Shown here: piece by piece, positions 3,680 through 56,797 of the stretch
Layout of the letters: every line of letters starts with the position of its first letter
Position numbering within the stretch: the first letter of the stretch is position 1
DNA from: Ryuthela nishihirai
Lineage: Eukaryota > Arthropoda > Arachnida > Araneae > Heptathelidae
DNA: 64,000 bases
Assembly (NCBI GenBank): GCA_038380435.1
Contig: JAWZYU010000719.1
Coordinates: 1 to 64,000 of the forward strand
Direction of reading: 5' to 3'
Made by a program: the position numbers and the translations under genes
Notes under the pieces: generated by a model
Database searches by the model: none
The model's input: only the letters and a program-made list of their open reading frames with translations
What the model was told of the DNA's origin: nothing

Positions 3680-3890
3680 GCCGTCCCGTGGCCGAGTGGT
3701 TAGTGCGCTTGGCTACTGATCAACGGGACCTGGGTTCGAGTCCCGGATAAGGCATGGATGTATGTGTCGTTTTTCTGCTGAGGTCCTGCCATCCTCTCAG
3801 ACCTTCTACTATGACATATAAACTGGCAGGCTCCTGTCAGACCTCTGTGGCAAGCAGCTGCTTGAGGGGGTATTTTTTTAAAAAAAAAGA
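3680..3890 (+). mobile_element. SINE-B, second unit of a dimer
   Basis: A complete unit with head GCCGTCCCGTGGCCGAGTGG, B box GGTTCGAGTCC and 3' end GCTGCTTGAGGGGGTATTTT. The junction with the preceding unit is the same as in the 5122-5532 dimer. Confidence 0.92.
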
Positions 3891-5325: not shown

Positions 5326-5532
5326 CCGTCCCGTGGCCGAGTGGTTAGTGCGCTTGGCTACTGATCAACGGGACCTGGGTTCGAGTCCCGGATAAGGCAT
5401 GGATGTATGTGTCGTTTTTCTGCTGAGGTCCTGCCATCCTCTCAGACCTTTACTATGGCATATAAACTGACAGGCTCCTGTCAGACCTCTGTGGCAAGCA
5501 GCTGCTTGAGGGAGTATTTATTTTTTTTATTT
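5326..5532 (+). mobile_element. SINE-B, second unit of a TSD-flanked dimer
   Basis: A full unit joined head-to-tail to the one before it through TTTATTTTTT/GCCGTCCCG. It ends in a T-rich tail directly before the TSD copy at 5533-5545. Confidence 0.93.
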
Positions 5533-8803: not shown

Positions 8804-9425
8804 AGTGTTACGACAGAAGAATCTGGCAACCGAAAGCAAAGTTTCAGCCAACGAATAAGAACGTTGGGAGAATTTGGAGAAGAAGAGTGGAGCGTTAACG
8901 GTCGTTGTGTTGTAACGGTCGGTGAGTTCGAAAATGGACGGTGAGCTGTTCTGAGACAGTGCGCGTAAGTATCAAGAAGTAACTTGATGTGTTGTGTATA
9001 CGCGGAAGGATAAAAGTGGGATCTTTTATCGTTACGTATCAAGAAGTAACTTGATGTGTTGTGTATACACGGAAGTATAAAAGTGGGAACTTTTATGGCT
9101 AACTTCGAATGTCTACACGGACTGTCTTTTTGTTCGGCTAGTGTGTGAACAGTTATTAGCACAGGACGAGAATTGGTTTACGAGTGAAGATCTTCGGGTG
9201 ACCTGGTAAATCAAGTAAAAGGTAGTATTTAGTAAAATACACAGAGCTGATATTGTGTGCTCTACGCAGGAAGATTGATGACTTGTGCATGTTAATAGTT
9301 GATTTGTTAATAAGATACTTCATCCATATTTCCTTTGTAACAATTTACCTTGTATTGAATTTGGTTTTGAAATATAGCTTTTAATACTCACGCTCAGTGG
9401 CTATCCATTTTTGTGATCCGCAACA
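8804..9425 (+). repeat. 5' LTR
   Basis: It begins (AG)TGTTACGACAG and ends GATCCGCAACA. The only difference from the 3' LTR that I found is TGTAACGGTCGG against TGTAACAGTCGG near 8930. Two imperfect tandem units of about 67 bp, each starting near TATCAAGAAGTAACTTGATG, lie in the promoter half. Confidence 0.93.
9076..9083 (+). promoter_or_regulatory. Probable LTR TATA box
   Basis: TATAAAAG lies in the second 67 bp unit. The first unit has the weaker GATAAAAG at the matching place. The same arrangement is present in the 3' LTR. Confidence 0.6.
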
Positions 9426-9427
9426 TT

Positions 9428-9446
9428 TGGTGTCAGAAGTGGGATT
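9428..9446 (+). other. Primer-binding site, tRNA-Leu
   Basis: TGGTGTCAGAAGTGGGATT begins two bases after the 5' LTR. It is complementary to a tRNA 3' end including CCA, and matches the acceptor/T-arm sequence typical of animal tRNA-Leu genes (recalled, not searched). Confidence 0.8.
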
Positions 9447-9462
9447 ATGATTAATTAATTGA

Positions 9463-12400
9463 ATGCCGTTAACTAGAAGTATGGATGAATTAGTAAAGTT
9501 GATAAATAGCTTCAAAGCCGATATGACTGCGCTGATGACTGATAGGAAAACCATTATGACTACGCTGATGAATGACATTAAAAGTCAAAATAATGATTTG
9601 AAAGCCGAAATAGCGACACAAAATAGTACATTAGATGAAATGATAGCCGAAATGGCCGCACGAAATAATGAGTTGAGGAATAAAAGAGGTGATCTGGCCG
9701 CACAAAATACTGAGATTAAAGGTGATATGGCCGCCCAAAGCGATAAAATAGGTGACTTGAAAGCCGAAATGGCCGCACAAAATAATGAGTTGAGAACTGA
9801 AATAGTTTCTCAAAAAGATGACTTGAAAGCCGATATGGCTACTCAGATGACTGATATTAAAGGTGATATAGCTGCCCAAAGCGATAAAATAGGTGACTTG
9901 AAAGCCGAAATGGCCGCACAAAATACTGAGATGAGAGCTGAAGTGGCTTCTCAAATTGATAAGTTTATTGATCAGTTCAAGGATAGTAAAACCGAACTCA
10001 ATAGACAATGCAATAGTTTAAATGTTGAATTTGTCAGTGAAAAAGATGATCTTGATAGTGTTAAGTTAGATTGTAAACATGGAAAAGAGAAAGGCAACGC
10101 ATATAAAAATGTGGATCTGCTACTGGAAATCAAGAATCGTAGAGATAGCGCAGATAATGCCTTTGACCACGCAACTACTGGTAATGCATGGCAGAGTGTC
10201 TATGTCGCTGGTGACATGTCTAGGAACTGTGAAGAACAATCACACAGATCAGAGAGCTGCGAGACTATACAGTACGCTTTGCACTTCAAAATACCTAGGT
10301 ATACAAGTCTGTCACGATCTGAAGAGAGATCCACACGAAAGGTATTCTATTCCTCGCCGTCAGCAAAATGCGTCATGGACAATTATCGCAAAGGCAGAGT
10401 AATGAGTGGTAATGAGGGGGAACGAAACAGAGTTTACGTTTCGCAGAGTGGTCCGAGTAAAGAAGAGGCGTCCATTCATCATAGATACAAAGTGCCATTC
10501 GACGTTACCGGGGAAGTCGGAGAGATTTTACCGAAGCATATAGCCACACTCGAATCGTTTATAGAAAGTAGGGATTTAAGGAAGAGGAATTCCGAAGGAT
10601 GGCTTAGAAGCATAACAGGTGATGCTAGTAAAAGAGCTTCAGGCAGAGACAGTACTTCAAAGACTAACTTTCTGGATGAAACTAAGCCTCAGAGTTACGA
10701 TAAGAGAGAAGTAAAGCCCTCAGACAATTTCAACGTAGCCACGCTGAATTTCTTTTCTGAACAGTCAATGTGCAGATTTGGACATTATAACCATTTAGAT
10801 TATAAGGATATAGAAAAGTTTTATCACGATTACAAGAGCTCTAAAGTGGACAATATCATGTTACAAAACTCGTCGCTGATTTCCAGAATGAACAATTTGG
10901 CAATCATGACTGATGTTTCCCTGGCTAATTACAATGAGAGCTCCAAGAAAGTGAATTCCGAAGAAACAGCAACTATGACCTCCTCGGGTCATGTGTTTTG
11001 CTGGAGACCCGAGTGGCGCCATCGGATGGTAGATAAACACAGTACAGGAGGTGTCGGCGACAAAGTGAGTCTTGTCTTGGCTCCTGCACTTGCTGCTTTA
11101 GGTCTCAAGGTCCCTATGATCTCCGGTCGTGCTCTCCAATTGACGGGAGATACTCTGTACAAATTGGAATCCATCCCTGGCTTCACAGTCGACTGCACTA
11201 AAGATAAAATCGAGCAGATGATGGAAGACGTCGGATGCTGCATCGTAGGACAGACAGTGGAGCTGGTGCCAACAGATAAGGAGATTTACCGCTGCAAGGA
11301 TCTGACGGCTACCGTAGATAGCGTTCCTCTAATGAGATGCTCAATTGTGTCCAAAAAGCTGGCTGAAGGAGTGTGCGCTTTGGTTTATGATGTTGAATTC
11401 GGAAAAGGAGCTATTGATCTCATCAGTACAGAAGATGTTGCTGTTGATTTAGTTAAGAAAATGGTTGCAGCATCACAAGCTCGTGGAATGAAGAGTTTGA
11501 GTTGTTCAGCTGTTATCAGCAACATGGATGGAAGTGTTCAGTGTTTCCTTGGTAACGGATCCTTGGAACTGCAAGAGCTCGTCGAAGAGTTAGGAGAACT
11601 TCTGCGTTTTGTGAACATTGTGGATAATAGGGTAGATGAAGCATCACGTGTCCGTAAGGTTCTGCATAACGGCAATGCTTTGAACAAGTTTCGTAACATG
11701 TTAATAGAACAAGGAGTATCTGAAGATGTTGCAAGCTGGCTATGTGAAGGTAAAACAGAAAAAATATTGCTAGCAGCCCGACACATCACTGATTTCACTT
11801 ATACAGGAGAAACAGATAAGGTTGTCGGATTAGAAGCTGCAGTCCTAGCAAGAGTATGGAAGGAGGAGATGGACCGAAGCGCTAAAAAGAATTATGGAGC
11901 TGATATTATATTTGTGAAGCACCTTGGGGATCAATTTGAATCAGGTGAAATATGGCTGAAGGTTCATCACGACAGTTCTGAATTAAGTGAAAGTCAACTG
12001 ACAAAAGGGTCAGATTGCAGGATGAAACTCCTCCCTAGATTTTATGTCACTAATGACTTTCATTCCTTGTTACTGTTGATAGAAGTAAAAATCCAAAGAA
12101 GAAAACTTTCGACAAAGAAGAAAACTTTTTACAGGTTTTGCACGAAAACTCTTAGTCGATTCTTCTCCCTGCAGAGACATAAACGTGTTCACAAGGGCTA
12201 TAGGCCTTACACGTATTATGTTTGTGGACGAGGCTTCAGTCAGAAAAGAAATCTACGTCATAATGAGATTCGCTTTCATTTTGACACAAACGTGGTATAT
12301 CGCATTCGTCGACGTCCAGCTACAAAGTGCAAGGTGGTTCACGTGGATCGTTTGGCCCCGTTTCATCGAAGAACTGAAGAAACTTTGGAATCCAGAATTG

Positions 12401-12525
12401 TTCGGGACGAACAAGACCTGGGAAGGGGGCAGTGTTACGACAGAAGAATCTGGCAACCGAAAGCAAAGTTTCAGCCAACGAATAAGAACGTTGGGAGAAT
12501 TTGGAGAAGAAGAGTGGAGCGTTAA
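9463..12525 (+). CDS. Chimeric Gag-like / thymidine phosphorylase / zinc finger / integrase-tail protein, 1020 aa
   Basis: The sole gene of the LTR element. The ATG is the first in frame after the primer site. Residues 1-180 form a charged, Gag-like coiled coil with a 47-residue internal repeat (units start near 87 and 134). Residues 181-504 are polar and unrecognised. Residues 507-848 match animal thymidine phosphorylase from within its N-terminal third onward: KHSTGGVGDK at 525-534 and SIVSKKLAEG at 627-636. About 90-100 N-terminal residues and a short internal stretch near MDGSVQCF are absent. The enzyme family cleaves thymidine with phosphate. Phosphate-site His526, Ser627 and Lys631 remain, but Lys612 replaces the usual Arg, and the signature at 554-569 (SGRALQLTGDTLYKLE) departs at several conserved positions, so activity is doubtful. 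Residues 895-939 are a C2H2 finger with Tyr918 in place of the first Cys. Residues 943-968 (VVHVDRLAPFH) are a gypsy integrase C-terminus. The last 30 codons lie in the 3' LTR. Confidence 0.85.
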   Translation: MPLTRSMDELVKLINSFKADMTALMTDRKTIMTTLMNDIKSQNNDLKAEIATQNSTLDEMIAEMAARNNELRNKRGDLAAQNTEIKGDMAAQSDKIGDLKAEMAAQNNELRTEIVSQKDDLKADMATQMTDIKGDIAAQSDKIGDLKAEMAAQNTEMRAEVASQIDKFIDQFKDSKTELNRQCNSLNVEFVSEKDDLDSVKLDCKHGKEKGNAYKNVDLLLEIKNRRDSADNAFDHATTGNAWQSVYVAGDMSRNCEEQSHRSESCETIQYALHFKIPRYTSLSRSEERSTRKVFYSSPSAKCVMDNYRKGRVMSGNEGERNRVYVSQSGPSKEEASIHHRYKVPFDVTGEVGEILPKHIATLESFIESRDLRKRNSEGWLRSITGDASKRASGRDSTSKTNFLDETKPQSYDKREVKPSDNFNVATLNFFSEQSMCRFGHYNHLDYKDIEKFYHDYKSSKVDNIMLQNSSLISRMNNLAIMTDVSLANYNESSKKVNSEETATMTSSGHVFCWRPEWRHRMVDKHSTGGVGDKVSLVLAPALAALGLKVPMISGRALQLTGDTLYKLESIPGFTVDCTKDKIEQMMEDVGCCIVGQTVELVPTDKEIYRCKDLTATVDSVPLMRCSIVSKKLAEGVCALVYDVEFGKGAIDLISTEDVAVDLVKKMVAASQARGMKSLSCSAVISNMDGSVQCFLGNGSLELQELVEELGELLRFVNIVDNRVDEASRVRKVLHNGNALNKFRNMLIEQGVSEDVASWLCEGKTEKILLAARHITDFTYTGETDKVVGLEAAVLARVWKEEMDRSAKKNYGADIIFVKHLGDQFESGEIWLKVHHDSSELSESQLTKGSDCRMKLLPRFYVTNDFHSLLLLIEVKIQRRKLSTKKKTFYRFCTKTLSRFFSLQRHKRVHKGYRPYTYYVCGRGFSQKRNLRHNEIRFHFDTNVVYRIRRRPATKCKVVHVDRLAPFHRRTEETLESRIVRDEQDLGRGQCYDRRIWQPKAKFQPTNKNVGRIWRRRVER
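10981..12006 (+). other. Transduced thymidine phosphorylase segment inside the ORF
   Basis: This part of the chimeric ORF aligns by eye with animal TYMP over about 340 codons. There is no intron and no frame change, as expected of a copy made from spliced mRNA. The entry point is near SGHVFCWRPEWRHRM, which parallels the stretch just before KHSTGG in vertebrate TYMP. The exit is shortly after GEIWLKVHH, the usual C-terminal region. Confidence 0.85.
12420..12430 (+). other. Polypurine tract
   Basis: GGGAAGGGGGC directly precedes the 3' LTR, the position used to prime plus-strand synthesis in LTR elements. Confidence 0.75.
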
Positions 12526-13052
12526 CGGTCGTTGTGTTGTAACAGTCGGTGAGTTCGAAAATGGACGGTGAGCTGTTCTGAGACAGTGCGCGTAAGTATC
12601 AAGAAGTAACTTGATGTGTTGTGTATACGCGGAAGGATAAAAGTGGGATCTTTTATCGTTACGTATCAAGAAGTAACTTGATGTGTTGTGTATACACGGA
12701 AGTATAAAAGTGGGAACTTTTATGGCTAACTTCGAATGTCTACACGGACTGTCTTTTTGTTCGGCTAGTGTGTGAACAGTTATTAGCACAGGACGAGAAT
12801 TGGTTTACGAGTGAAGATCTTCGGGTGACCTGGTAAATCAAGTAAAAGGTAGTATTTAGTAAAATACACAGAGCTGATATTGTGTGCTCTACGCAGGAAG
12901 ATTGATGACTTGTGCATGTTAATAGTTGATTTGTTAATAAGATACTTCATCCATATTTCCTTTGTAACAATTTACCTTGTATTGAATTTGGTTTTGAAAT
13001 ATAGCTTTTAATACTCACGCTCAGTGGCTATCCATTTTTGTGATCCGCAACA
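12431..13052 (+). repeat. 3' LTR
   Basis: Same length and sequence as 8804-9425 apart from one visible substitution. The flank after it begins ATATTAAT, giving the short target duplication. Confidence 0.93.
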
Positions 13053-13182: not shown

Positions 13183-13569
13183 AAGGGGCGGGGGTGGCTC
13201 AGTCGGTAGCGCGCCAGGCTCGTAATCTGTAGTTCCCAGGTTCGAGTCCCAGCTGGGTCAGCGTTGAGATTTATCTCCGCAAAATTCCCCGCCCTGCCCA
13301 CGGTCAGTAGGGGACACCGATGGGCTTGGAAAGGCCGCCGTCCGTCGGATGGGACGTTAAGCCGTGGCCCCGTGTGCTGGAGAGCCATACCCTGTGCACG
13401 TTTAAAGAACACGCTGGATGGCCTTGACGGGAGGCTACCATCTGTCTCCCAACAGCTGTTCTAGTGGGGCCCCTCCCCCCAACCTTCTCTGAGCCTTCGG
13501 GGTCCATGTGACCTGGCCATTTAGCCCATAGTGTGCAAAAAAGTGCCGCTTAGAGGTAGAACAACCCAA
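13183..13569 (+). mobile_element. SINE-A, full length, TSD 11 bp
   Basis: A good reference copy. Head GGGGCGGGGGTGGCTCAG, B box GGTTCGAGTCC, body with CACGGTCAGTAGGGGACACC, 3' end GAGGTAGAACAACCCAA. CCCTGTAAGAT at 13172-13182 and 13570-13580 is the target duplication, as made by LINE-driven integration. The anticodon region reads GGCTCGTAATCTG; some copies read CTCATAATCTG, which suggests tRNA-Met or tRNA-Thr ancestry. Confidence 0.95.
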
Positions 13570-13661
13570 CCCTGTAAGATGACCACTGGAATGATCGTCT
13601 GTGTGTGATTTTCCACACATAGCTATGTTTTGAAGCGTACCGCTAAGAAATAAAATTACTT

Positions 13662-13840
13662 TCACTACTGCTGATCAAAGGGATCTGGGTTCGAGCCCCG
13701 GATAAGGCATGGATGTTTGTGTTGTTTTTCTGCTGAGGTCCCGCCATCCTCTCAGATCTACTACGGCGTATAAACTGACAGGCTCTTTATCAGACCTCTG
13801 TGGCAAGCAACTGCTTGAGGGGGCATTTATTTTATTGTGC
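13662..13840 (+). mobile_element. SINE-B, partial head
   Basis: It starts inside the head at TACTGCTGATCAAAGGG. B box GGTTCGAGCCCC and the normal 3' end are present. Confidence 0.9.
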
Positions 13841-13898
13841 GACAGAAATTAGATTTTGGAGGGGAAACGGCATAGTATATTTATGGCTTTCAAAATGG

Positions 13899-14277
13899 TT
13901 GGGTTTTATCTCTGAGCGGCACTTTTTTGCACACCATGGGCTAAATGGCCAGGTCACAAGAACCCCGAAGGCTCAGAGAAGGTTGAGAGGAAGAGACCCA
14001 CTGGAACAGCTGTTGGGAGACGGTAGCCTCCTGTTGAGGCCATCCAGCGTGTTCTTTAACGTGCACAGGTATGGCTCTCTCGCACATGGGGCACGGATTA
14101 ACGTCCCATCTTACGGACGGCAGCCTTTCCAAGCCTATCGGTGTCCCCTACTGACCGTGGACAGGGCGGGGAGTTTTGGCGGAGATAACTCTGTCTCAAC
14201 GCTTACCCAGCTGGGACTCGAACCTGGGAACTGCAGATTACGAGTCTGGCGTGCTACTGACTGACCACCCCCGCCCC
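13899..14277 (-). mobile_element. SINE-A, TSD 12 bp
   Basis: Near full length, flanked by CTTTCAAAATGG at 13887-13898 and 14278-14289. Confidence 0.94.
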
Positions 14278-17009: not shown

Positions 17010-17399
17010 GGGGGCGGGGTGGCTCAGTCGGTAGCGCGCCAGGCTCGTAATCTGTAGTTCCCAGGTTCGAGTCCCAGCTGTGTCAGCGTTGAGATTTATC
17101 TCCGCAAAAATTCGCCGCCCTGCTCACGGTCAGTAGGGGACACCGATGGACTTAGAAAGGCCACCGTCCGTCGGATAGGACGTTAAAGACGTGGCACCGT
17201 GTGCGGGAGAACCATACCCAGTGCACGTTAAAGAACACGCTGGATGGCCTTGACGGGAGGCTACCATCTGTCTCCCAACAGCTGTTGCAGTGGGTCCCCT
17301 CCCCCAACCTTCTCTGAGCCTTCGGGGGTCCATCTGACCTGGCCATTTAGCCCATGGTGTGCAAAAAAGTGCCGCTCAGAGGTAAAACAACCCAACCCA
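17010..17399 (+). mobile_element. SINE-A, full length
   Basis: Head to tail complete, ending AAAACAACCCAACCCAACC. I found no clear TSD. Confidence 0.93.
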
Positions 17400-20525: not shown

Positions 20526-20909
20526 GGTTGGGTTGTTTTACCTCTGAGCGGCACTTTTTTGCACACCATGGGCTGAATGGTCAGGTCACATGGACCACGA
20601 AGGCTCAGAGAAGGTTGGGGGAGGGGACCCACTGGAACAGCTGTTGGGAGTCAGATGGTAGCCTCCCGTCAAGGCCATCCAGCATGTTCTTTAACGTGCA
20701 CAGGGTATGGCTGTCCCGCACATGGGGCCACGGCTTAACGTCCCATCCGACGGACGGCTGCCTTTCCAAGCCCATCGGTGTCCCCTACTGACCGTGGGCA
20801 GGGCGGGGAATTTTGCGGAGATAAATCTCAACGCTGACCCAGCTGGGACTCGAACCCGGGAACTACAGATTACGAGCCTGGCGCGCTACCGACTGAGCTA
20901 CCCCCGACC
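20526..20909 (-). mobile_element. SINE-A, TSD 12 bp
   Basis: Full length, flanked by CTTCTCTGAATG at 20514-20525 and 20910-20921. Confidence 0.95.
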
Positions 20910-24029: not shown

Positions 24030-24235
24030 AGCCGTCTCATGGCCGAGTGGTTAGCGCACTTGGCTACTGATCTAAGGGACCCGGGTTCGAGTCCCGGGTA
24101 AGGCATGGATGTTCGTGTTGTTTTTCTGCCGAGGTCCTGCCATCCTCTCAGACCTTCTACTGTGGCATATAAACTGACAGGCTATAGGTCAGACCTCTGT
24201 GGCAAGCAGCTGCTTGAGGGGGTATTTATTTATTT
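24030..24235 (+). mobile_element. SINE-B, full length, TSD 11 bp
   Basis: Head GCCGTCTCATGGCCGAGTGG. Flanked by TATTGAATAAA before (about 24018-24028) and after (ending at 24247). Confidence 0.93.
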
Positions 24236-33748: not shown

Positions 33749-34192
33749 CAATTTGCTGTTATGTTTATTGGTTATTTCTATGAGTTATTTCAAAATCGAT
33801 TTCAGCACCCAGGCAAAGAGAACATCTTTCCTTTTCTGCAGTCTAATGGAAAATTTTCCTCAGCAATTTATTTGCATATGTCATATTAATACCTTTGCTA
33901 CCATTTGAATGATAAAGTCAAACAAGATTATCGGTTGAAATTTCGGCCATGCACTTGTAAACAACGCAAGAATGTTCGTATTTTTAGGCTCCGGGAAGAT
34001 TTCGTGAACTCCAGACTCAATGCCAGAAAAGGAATTGCAATGAGCATGGCGGTGTCAAAGAACTTTTGAATTGGGGTGTCTATAGAATGCTTGAAGAGAG
34101 AGATAGAGAGTGTAAATACTGCGGACATCGATTACGATCCGAGGAGGCGTTCTTTAATTGCATTGAAAATTTGCAATGAGAGATTTGCACAG
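33749..34192. other. AT-rich spacer
   Basis: No supported feature. Confidence 0.5.
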
Positions 34193-34866
34193 GGTTGGGT
34201 TGTTTTACCTCTGAGCGGCACTTTTTTGCACACCATGGGCTAAATGGCCAGGTCACATGGACCCGGAAGGCTCAGAGAAGGTTGGGGGAGGGGACCCACT
34301 GGAACAGCTGTTGGGAGACAGATGGCAGCCTCCCGTCAAGGTTGGGTTGTTTAACCTCTGAGCGGCACTTTTTTGCACACCATGGGCTAAATGGCCAGGT
34401 CACATGGACCCCGAAGGCTCAGAGAAGGTTGGGGGAGGGAACCCACTGGAACAGCTGTTGGGAGACAGAGGGCAGCCTCCCGTCAAAGTTGGGTTGTTTA
34501 ACCTCTGAGCGGCACTTTTTTGCACACCATGGGCTAAATGGCCAGGTCACATGGACCCCGAAGGCTCAGAGAAGGTTGGGGGAGGGGACCCACTGGAACA
34601 GTTGTTGGGAGACAGATGGTAGCCTCCCGTCAAAGCCATCCAGCGTGTTCTTTAACGTGCACAGGGTATGGCTCTCCCGCACACGGGGCCACGGCTTAAC
34701 GTCCCATCCGACGGACGGCGGCCTTTCAAAGCCCATCTGTGTCCCCTACTGACCGTGGGCAGGGCGGGGAATTTTGCGGAGATAAATCTCAACGCTGACC
34801 CAGCTGGGACTCGAACCTGGGAACTACAGATTACGAGCCTGGCGCGCTACCGACTGAGCCACCCCT
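34193..34866 (-). mobile_element. SINE-A with two extra 3' units (trimer of the tail)
   Basis: Units restart with TTGGGTTGTTT at 34193, about 34342 and about 34489 (period 147-149 bp). The third continues into a complete SINE-A. Both junctions join CCCGTCAARG to TTGGGTTG. Confidence 0.93.
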
Positions 34867-36588: not shown

Positions 36589-36680
36589 TACTTCTATGTT
36601 AAGGATGTATATGCTCGATGCCAAGGTATTATTAGTGGAATAAAGTTAGAAAACATTAAACCTTCTCCATTACATCGGAG

Positions 36681-37485
36681 TTGGGTTGGGTTGTTTTACC
36701 TCTGATCGGTACTTTTTTTCACACCATGGGCTAAATGGCCAGGTCACAAGGACCCCGAAGGCTCAGAGAAGGTTGGGGGAGGAGACCTACTGGAACAGCT
36801 ATTGGGAGACAGATGGTAGCTTCCCGTCAAGGTTGGGTTGTTTTACCTCTGGTCGGCACTTATTTGCACACTATGGGCTAAATGGCCAGGTCACAACGAC
36901 CCCGAAGGCTCAGAGAAGGTTGGGGGAGGAGACCTACTGGAACAGCTATTGGGAGACAGATGGTAGCTTCCCGTCAAGGTTGGGTTGTTTTACCTCTGAT
37001 CGGCACTTATTTGCACACTATGGGCTAAATGGCCAGGTCACAAGGACCCCGAAGGCTCAGAGAAGGTTGGGGGAGAGGACCCACTGGAACAGCTGTTGGG
37101 AGACAGATGGTAGCTTCCCGTCAAGGTTGGGTTGTTTTACCTCTGATCGGCACTTTTTTGCACACCATAGGCTAAATGGCCAGGTCACAAGGACCCCGAA
37201 GGCTCAGAGAAGGTTGGGGGAGGGGACCTACTTTAGCATCTGTTGGGAAACAGATGGTACCCTCCCGTCAAGGCCATCCAGCGTGTTCTTTAACGTGCAC
37301 AGGGTATGACTCTCCCACACACCGGACCACGGCTTAACGTCCCATCCGACGGACGGCGGCCTTTCCAAGCCCATCGGTGTCCCCTACTGACCGTGGGCAA
37401 GACGGGAATTTTGCGGAGATAAATCTCAACACTGACTCAGCTGGGACTCGAACCTGGGAACTGCAGATTACGAGCCTGGCGCGCT
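36681..37485 (-). mobile_element. SINE-A with three extra 3' units, one TSD around all four
   Basis: Four 3' units restart at about 36681, 36832, 36980 and 37127. The last runs into the body and stops inside the head (GGCGCGCT). CATTACRTCGGAG (36668-36680 and 37486-37498, one mismatch) encloses the whole block. Confidence 0.92.
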
Positions 37486-55262: not shown

Positions 55263-55784
55263 CTACGGAGGTCCAACCAGACTGTGCAATTTAGTTCTCC
55301 AAGTAAGTCTATCCTGAGCTACATCTACTGCATCTGGCCACTGCACACCAATTCTAACAAGGTCCTGTTTGACATTGTCTGCCCACCGCATCCTAGGTCT
55401 CCCCTTCTTTCTGAGGCCTTTAGGCACACTGTTCATAACCCTATTCGCCAATCTATAATTATTCATACGGGCAACATGGCCAAACCAACGGAGTCTCTCT
55501 CTGCACAATATGCTGCTTAAAGGAGGTTGCAGACTCCTTTGCCTAACCTCATCATTAGTTGCGAAGTTGAACCACCTAATGCCCAAGATGCTGCGTAAGC
55601 ATCTGGAATCAAAAGCATCTAGTTTCCTGTTATCTTGTTTACAAAGTGTCCAAGTTTCACTACCATAACTAACCCTAGAAAGAACCAAACTGTTATACAG
55701 TCTAATTTTAGTCTTTAGGTGTATACGCCTATTTATCCACACTCTCCATAGATTCTTAAAAGTCCGGCAGCAATCCCTATCCAT
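55263..55784 (-). pseudogene. LINE RT C-terminal domain fragment
   Basis: The frame holds RLYNSLVLSRVSYGSETWTL, LRWFGHVARM and GRPRMRWADNV, the thumb and C-terminal region typical of RTE-like LINE proteins. It ends at a TAG at 55263-55265, only about 12 bp before the terminal repeat. It overlaps the RT core frame at 55733-55784, showing a one-base frame change between INRW and DRDCCRTF. Confidence 0.88.
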
Positions 55785-56760
55785 CTGTTAATCTCATGCC
55801 ACACATCACCATTATCTGTTGCATAGCTCCCAAGATAATTAAACTGTGACACCTGCTCAAGACCGCAACCATTCAGATTAACTGAATCACAACCTGCCTG
55901 ACCAATTTTCATCACTTTAGTTTTCTCTCTGTTTATAACCAAATCTACTCTACTACCAGTCTCATCAACAGTTCGAATGAAAGAGTTCATCTCATCAACA
56001 TCATTTGACAAAAGGGCTAAATCATCAGCATAATCTAAATCAGAAATTTTCATATCTCCACCCCATTTAAGGCCAAAATCTTTCCCTTGAAGTGAAATTC
56101 GCATAACATAATCAATAACCAAGCTAAAGAGAAAAGGAGACAAAATGCACCCTTGTCGAACACCAGAAGTAATGCGAAACCAATTGTTACAAGCCTTACC
56201 AACTCTCACACACGACTCAGTGTTATTATAGAGAGCTTTCATTATGCTAACTAACTTGTCAGGTATACCATATGATCTCACAATCAACCACAAATTATGA
56301 CGATCAACAGAGTCGAAAGCCTTTTTGAAATCAACAAAGCTAGCAACCAAAGGTTTCTGAAACTCTAAACATTTCTCAAGAATCTGCCTAAGTGAAAATA
56401 TCTGATCCACACATCCCCTACCACTTCTGAATCCACATTGCTCATCACGCAATTGACTGTCAAACAGATTCTTAATTCTATTAAGTACAATCATGGAAAG
56501 AACTTTACCTGGAACAGAAAGTAGGCCAATGCCCCTACAGTTATCACAAGAACTGCGATCACCCTTTTTGAAAATAGGGATAATAATAGCTCTGGTAAAA
56601 TACTTAGAAACCATGCCTTTATCATAAAAGTTATTTAAAATTTCAGTCATCCAAGTGGTAACCGAAACATTCCCAGCTGTAAGCATTTCTGTAGTAATTT
56701 CATCTACACCTGGGGATTTATGAAGTTTAAGTTTAGAAATAACCAAAATAACTTCAGATT
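55733..56760 (-). pseudogene. LINE reverse transcriptase core
   Basis: This is the enzyme that copies LINE RNA at the nicked target. Motifs in order: KLHKSPGVDEI, PIFKKGDRSSCDNCRGI, GFRSGRGCVDQI, SFVDFKKAFDSVDR (catalytic Asp), SGVRQGCILSPFLF and LDYADDLALLS (catalytic Asp pair). The core itself is uninterrupted for about 340 codons. The open frame enters from PITKSEV just downstream of the Tc1 insertion, and upstream of that a one-base frame change disconnects it from the linker. Confidence 0.9.
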
Positions 56761-56797
56761 TTGTTATAGGGCAACATTAAAGCCACCAATGCATCTA

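Follow-up and report, generated by a model that had tools for sequence, protein, structure and literature searches.

Structure of the element

The DNA analysed here, a stretch of 64,000 nucleotides referred to as the window, carries a 4.25-kb long terminal repeat (LTR) element at positions 8806-13052. Its LTRs (5' LTR, TG...CA, 8806-9425; 3' LTR, 12433-13052; + strand) are 620 bp each and differ from one another by 1 mismatch, the 300-bp core of the pair being identical. The original prediction had described a near-identical pair of this kind and had set the limits of the element at 8804 and 13052; comparison with other copies leaves the end in place and moves the start to 8806, since in most other copies the 5' LTR begins to match at base 3 of the query. 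The target-site duplication of this copy is imperfect (ATAG/ATAT). Two bases past the 5' LTR lies the PBS-like sequence TGGTGTCAGAAGTGGGAT (9428-9445, +), putatively a tRNA-Leu primer site, and the 3' LTR is preceded by the predicted polypurine tract, GGGAAGGGGGCAG (12418-12432, +), both recognised by sequence.

As predicted, the internal region is occupied by one long frame, a chimeric ORF of 1020 aa (9463-12525, +) made up of a Gag-like coiled coil, a captured segment and an integrase tail. The Gag-like N-terminal coiled coil (9463-10082) contains tandem repeats and is common to a set of 6.2-kb sibling elements described below. It is followed by a captured cargo of about 2.2 kb (10082-12289, +), which stands where the siblings have the rest of gag, the protease (PR), the reverse transcriptase (RT), RNase H (RH) and the integrase (IN) core. 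The frame closes with the C-terminal tail of the sibling pol, an integrase p58 C-terminal domain that runs into the 3' LTR (12290-12525). This tail had been read as that of a gypsy integrase, and the match holds: Integrase_p58_C aligns to aa 943-966 at 24.5 bits in the window copy against a Pfam cut-off of 27, and at 27.2 bits in another copy (L015), and over 78 aa the tail of the window ORF shares 96% identity with the end of the pol of sibling L010. RT, protease and integrase core were likewise absent from the window ORF in a Pfam search at E <= 1, in agreement with what had been claimed.

Copies and mobility of the family

The source assembly (3.11 Gb in 1680 contigs) was searched with the window LTR and with the thymidine phosphorylase (TP) segment of the cargo. 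The LTR query returned at least 40 matches on at least 26 contigs (1103 first-look candidates), and the TP query at least 40 matches, at 92-100% identity, on at least 23 contigs (2060 candidates). The 20 best LTR loci besides the window were then fetched, ranked by their likeness to the window LTR and leaving out 13 lower rows. Cargo-bearing elements account for 16 of these 20 loci, elements of the sibling form for three (L010, L021 and L027) and a solo LTR for one (L017); because of the ranking, the 16:3 proportion of cargo to sibling form is not a genome-wide ratio.

The family proposed from the single copy was expected to be mobile and young. Perfect 4-bp target-site duplications, mostly ATAT, flank 18 of 21 sites, the exceptions being the window copy, L015 and L019, and together with the dispersed TP matches these duplications bear out the mobility of the family. 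The LTR pairs of 20 elements, the window copy included, are 0-3 substitutions apart and 11 of the 20 pairs are identical, in keeping with the claim of youth; L014, L022 and L028 also show LTR length differences of about 17-19 bp. The number of copies rules out an assembly error as the origin of the chimera. A second class of junction, suggested by TP matches that stop at query base 950, proved to be an alignment artefact, since TP is complete in the three such loci examined, and zinc finger and tail are present there too.

Individual copies show some further peculiarities. In L019, which carries the cargo, a large part of the interior is deleted, yet the LTRs on both sides are identical. L012 and L013, on contigs C1 and C5, occupy the same position in a tandem array whose period is about 128 bp, and their flanks are 97-98% alike.

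Relationship to the gag-pol siblings

The siblings, which the original prediction did not include, are elements of about 6.2 kb that encode gag-pol and are without the cargo. L010 has a 1666-aa ORF in which Pfam recognises a zinc knuckle, protease (441-532), RVT_1 (773-933), RNase H (996-1124), integrase (1262-1432) and the p58 C-terminal domain; the assignment of the family to the Ty3/gypsy type is made by this PR-RT-RH-IN domain order in the autonomous relative. L027 likewise has one ORF (1694 aa); in L021 gag and pol are split between ORFs of 444 and 1216 aa. In long alignments these two elements match L010 at 96.6-97.4% identity, the Pfam domain scan covering L010.

When the cargo form is compared with the siblings, identity is 98-99.5% in the LTRs and 98.3-99.5% over the last 763-767 bp. 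The gag repeats vary more, identity in the aligned 5' parts, LTR included, being 88-97%. Homology stops at about position 10082 of the window and picks up again at about 12290, and the later part of the sibling Gag, with its zinc knuckle, is missing from the window ORF. The non-autonomous character of the family, part of the original prediction, is supported; a young, non-autonomous, gene-capturing LTR family is real. Because LTRs and 3' ends are shared at 98-99.5%, mobilisation of the cargo form in trans by sibling proteins appears to be the best reading.

Composition and origin of the cargo

The TP segment (10960-12006, +; aa 500-848) is the most readily recognised part of the cargo, matching the human TYMP chain 2j0f at E 3.8e-67 and Pfam Glycos_transf_3 at E 8.5e-27. 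It is a single open stretch covering residues of about 93-451 of 2j0f and is without introns, as had been claimed, and by both matches the catalytic a/b domain is present. An in-frame 42-bp deletion within it is private to the window copy among 28 aligned copies. Upstream, at 10789-10959 (+), a full-length TP profile reaches toward the TP N-terminal domain, a match that alone is not significant. This profile, built from six spider-type TPs with 456 positions, aligns to aa 443-848 of the window ORF (profile positions 17-423) and to aa 434-856 in L015. The N-terminal domain PF02885 gave no Pfam match in the ORF, and the scores of an N-terminal TP profile, 3.0 bits for L015 and 1.2 for the window copy, stayed below the 4.3 of the best of 300 shuffles; up to about aa 500 the similarity is therefore not significant.

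Downstream of TP is a degenerate C2H2 zinc-finger fragment (12139-12243, +; aa 893-927). Pfam zf-H2C2_2 matches it at E 1e-4 with the whole ORF and 8.6e-6 with the piece, both under the Pfam cut-off, and PDB zinc-finger chains match the window ORF down to 5e-21, a value summed over repeated fingers. The first part of the cargo (10082-10788, +) gave no match at E <= 1e-3 among 1552 candidates drawn from proteins of about 565-1800 aa, and no PDB match at E <= 10. Its Pfam leads are sub-threshold, a PANTS-like domain in 13 of 19 copies (best 0.0016) and NSUN2 Pre-PUA in 19 of 19 (best 0.0094), and an AlphaFold model was uninformative (mean pLDDT 29). Judged by its sequence, then, the cargo is a mosaic of TP, a C2H2 zinc-finger fragment and a stretch of about 0.7 kb without a named match. 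The original prediction of a captured TP in place of pol is accordingly correct as to TP and its position and too narrow as to the cargo, which also holds the finger and the other stretch.

Among the best 120 of 8000 matches, the named proteins nearest to the TP segment are TPs from spiders, 43-46% identical to it. A tree built from 34 rows (three copies and 31 selected proteins) places the cargo with six rows, three of which are named spiders; the grouping with spider-type TPs has support of 99/97 and a branch of 1.05, and long-branch effects are possible. The genome's own TYMP was sought with three weak searches: a spider N-terminal query (0 matches), the motif HTGGTLDK (0 matches) and the motif TGGTLDK (1 match, in an element copy). 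The donor gene was not found by these queries, so that the original claim of a host origin for TP is not supported and it is the absence of introns that points to an mRNA as the source of the segment. Horizontal entry from a different species, of the element or of the cargo, in place of capture in this lineage, would accommodate the grouping with spider-type enzymes on a long branch and the missing TYMP; the host may itself be a chelicerate, the TYMP searches have little force, and we regard such a transfer as quite unlikely.

The single TGGTLDK match, a candidate for the host TYMP, turned out to be yet another copy of the element, one whose LTRs have diverged further (L043, C8:89333100-89343000; LTRs about 96% like those of the window). 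L043 keeps TGGTLDK where 26 aligned copies have TGD, which suggests that the TGD change probably arose within the family.

Taken together, the family is very probably a non-autonomous one of Ty3/gypsy type, in which the 2.2-kb mosaic has taken the place of the interval that runs from mid-gag through the integrase core. An ancestor of the 6.2-kb siblings would have exchanged this interval for most of an animal TP coding sequence and a C2H2 fragment, both of them in one frame with the Gag N-terminus upstream and the integrase tail downstream. The capture may have taken place by template switching onto a packaged cellular mRNA, and packaging, reverse transcription and integration would since have been supplied in trans by sibling proteins.

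Residue changes in the captured TP

The motifs KHSTGG, HTGGTLDK, CR[DE]ITATV and SKK hold conserved TP active-site residues, several of which have changed. Among 26 open copies the histidine of KHSTGG is H in 9, N in 10 and Y in 7; the lysine preceding it is E in 5 and the serine following it is altered in 8. The GG of HTGGTLDK is GD in all 26, and the R of CR[DE]ITATV is K in all 25 readable open copies.

A functional TP could in principle benefit the element, for example by changing thymidine or dTTP pools while reverse transcription proceeds. Such a role would fit an a/b domain of which most is present and whose frame is open in 26 of the 28 copies, and SKK lysines that are retained in all 25 copies not deleted there. 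The substitutions just listed, the missing or unrecognisable N-terminal domain and the lack of residue-level constraint (see below) nevertheless make this explanation very improbable. Because active-site residues are changed and the N-terminal domain is missing or unrecognisable, the best reading is that TP is carried as an enzymatically dead passenger. The original wording, that TP had replaced the pol enzymes, implied a working substitute; that implication is not supported, since active-site residues are lost and residue-level selection on TP is lacking.

Selection on residues and on the reading frame

Variants among the copies were classed against the majority of each segment, and the neutral expectation was taken from that segment's own substitution types. 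For 10063-10984, 23 copies were used (6 of 29 were dropped for deletions), for TP 28 (L019 was dropped) and for zinc finger plus tail 29. The ratio of non-synonymous to synonymous variants (N/S) over the neutral expectation was 0.94, 1.41 and 0.96, respectively, and 1.10 for the pooled cargo (interval 0.83-1.47; N 187, S 67). Pairwise pN/pS for TP in 26 copies was 0.89, so that the exact value of the TP ratio, 1.41 by the majority-based count, is soft. As a positive control, the PR-RT-RH-IN region of the siblings gave 0.22, 0.32 and 0.25 in three pairs, and the cargo differs from pol (L010-L027 pair) at p 0.0009. Residue change in the cargo is near-neutral and looks unconstrained.

The reading frame presents a different picture. 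One ORF of at least 897 aa is kept in 14 of 17 complete cargo elements and broken in 3; in L011 the longest ORF begins at a later ATG. Of 255 variants 1 is a nonsense change, against an expectation of 10.4 given the substitution types observed (pooled P 0.0003, with related copies pooled). The deficit is clear by itself at 10063-10984 only (0 against 4.6 expected, P 0.01), the values for TP (1 against 4.4, P 0.07) and for zinc finger plus tail (0 against 1.4, P 0.24) being non-significant. Indel events are in frame in 9 cases and frame-shifting in 5, 4 of which are in L014 and 1 in L035. These data hint at constraint on the frame, a claim that is softer than that of neutral residues because related copies are pooled.

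The open frame might simply reflect youth, too little time having passed for stops to accumulate, in which case frame selection would be unneeded. This explanation is plausible, although we lean against it: LTR pairs only 0-3 substitutions apart, the 3 broken frames of 17 and the mostly non-significant segment tests all fit it, whereas the pooled shortage of nonsense variants and the excess of in-frame indels, with 4 of the 5 frame-shifts confined to one copy, do not. If the frame is indeed under constraint, open-frame copies would leave more progeny, perhaps because their RNA escapes the destabilising effect of premature stops, or because it is helped into particles by the Gag-headed fusion. 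A captured gene would then serve purely as an ORF, its residues free and its frame kept translatable for RNA stability or packaging; we put this forward tentatively, as possible but somewhat doubtful. It would follow that, in a trans-mobilised LTR family, pol could be replaced by whatever cellular coding sequence had a suitable length.

Alternatively the chimeric protein itself, without TP activity, may be used, the Gag-headed fusion joining or interfering with sibling particles and the cargo acting as a spacer. The placement of the cargo, flanked in frame by the Gag coiled coil and the integrase tail, is consistent with such a use, as are the retention of most frames while residues drift and the 16 cargo forms to 3 siblings among the fetched loci. 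That proportion, however, comes from loci ranked by likeness to the window LTR, and the window ORF lacks the later sibling Gag, zinc knuckle included; a use of this kind seems unlikely.

Comparison with known elements

The maize element Bs1 has a low copy number and is without intact pol. It is described as an LTR retroelement that transduced pieces of three cellular genes and has a hybrid ORF (PMC13317346), and on that description it is the closest known case. In both elements cellular gene pieces are fused in frame with element sequence inside an LTR element; unlike Bs1 as described there, the present family is from an animal, carries TP and zinc-finger pieces, is represented by at least 40 dispersed matches and has gag-pol siblings with the same LTR. 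LTR-mediated retrocopies in animals, which are explained by template switching in particles (Tan et al., as recounted in PMC5408686), likewise have cellular mRNA sequence between LTRs. The cases in that account are gene retrocopies, whereas here the chimera became a replicating family. Rice and sorghum LTR elements with captured gene segments (PMC3726574; PMC13317346) are presented as plant captures in a bulk survey, in contrast to the one family considered here, with its near-neutral residues and mostly open frame. The LTR elements of bdelloid rotifers with additional ORFs (PMC5408684) are similar in being animal elements with extra coding sequence, but as described their extra ORFs stand beside conserved ones, while here pol is gone. 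The long ORF kept in most complete cargo elements also separates the family from LARD and TRIM elements, which are non-coding.

Among 87 long TP-containing proteins in public data, none had RT or integrase by their listed Pfam domains, which is weak evidence of rarity since the element's own ORF is also missing from that set. Within the library covered, a literature search pairing thymidine phosphorylase with LTR retrotransposon returned fungus-genome work alone, and nothing when 'captured' was added. What is new here is the TP and zinc-finger cargo, the animal host, the abundant young family and the hint of a frame-only constraint. In this family Bs1 appears to have an animal equivalent, one that is present in many young copies and shares its genome with a likely helper, so that gene capture, helper parasitism and selection on chimeric frames are open to study in one system. 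The pairing of an open frame with free residues also poses a testable question, namely what leads a non-autonomous LTR element to retain a long ORF.

Other features of the window

Just downstream of the element, at 13280-14178, is a set of nested inverted repeats with arms of 91, 42 and 119 bp that are about 90% complementary. Sequence resembling that which lies 130-400 bp downstream of the window copy recurs in the flanks of several other copies. Two open stretches, at 34180-34752 and 36650-37309 (+), match Pfam Csx1_HEPN, the first over 24 residues (E 1.7e-9) and the second over 43 (E 1.9e-8); such matches are odd for an animal genome and perhaps due to composition or chance. tRNA-like sequences at 3683-3754, 5328-5399, 17013-17085 and 24034-24105 (+) and at 20842-20901 (-) are perhaps tRNA-derived SINEs. 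A separate retroelement is present at 55736-56776 (-), where a 347-aa open stretch matches RVT_1 at E 9.9e-35.
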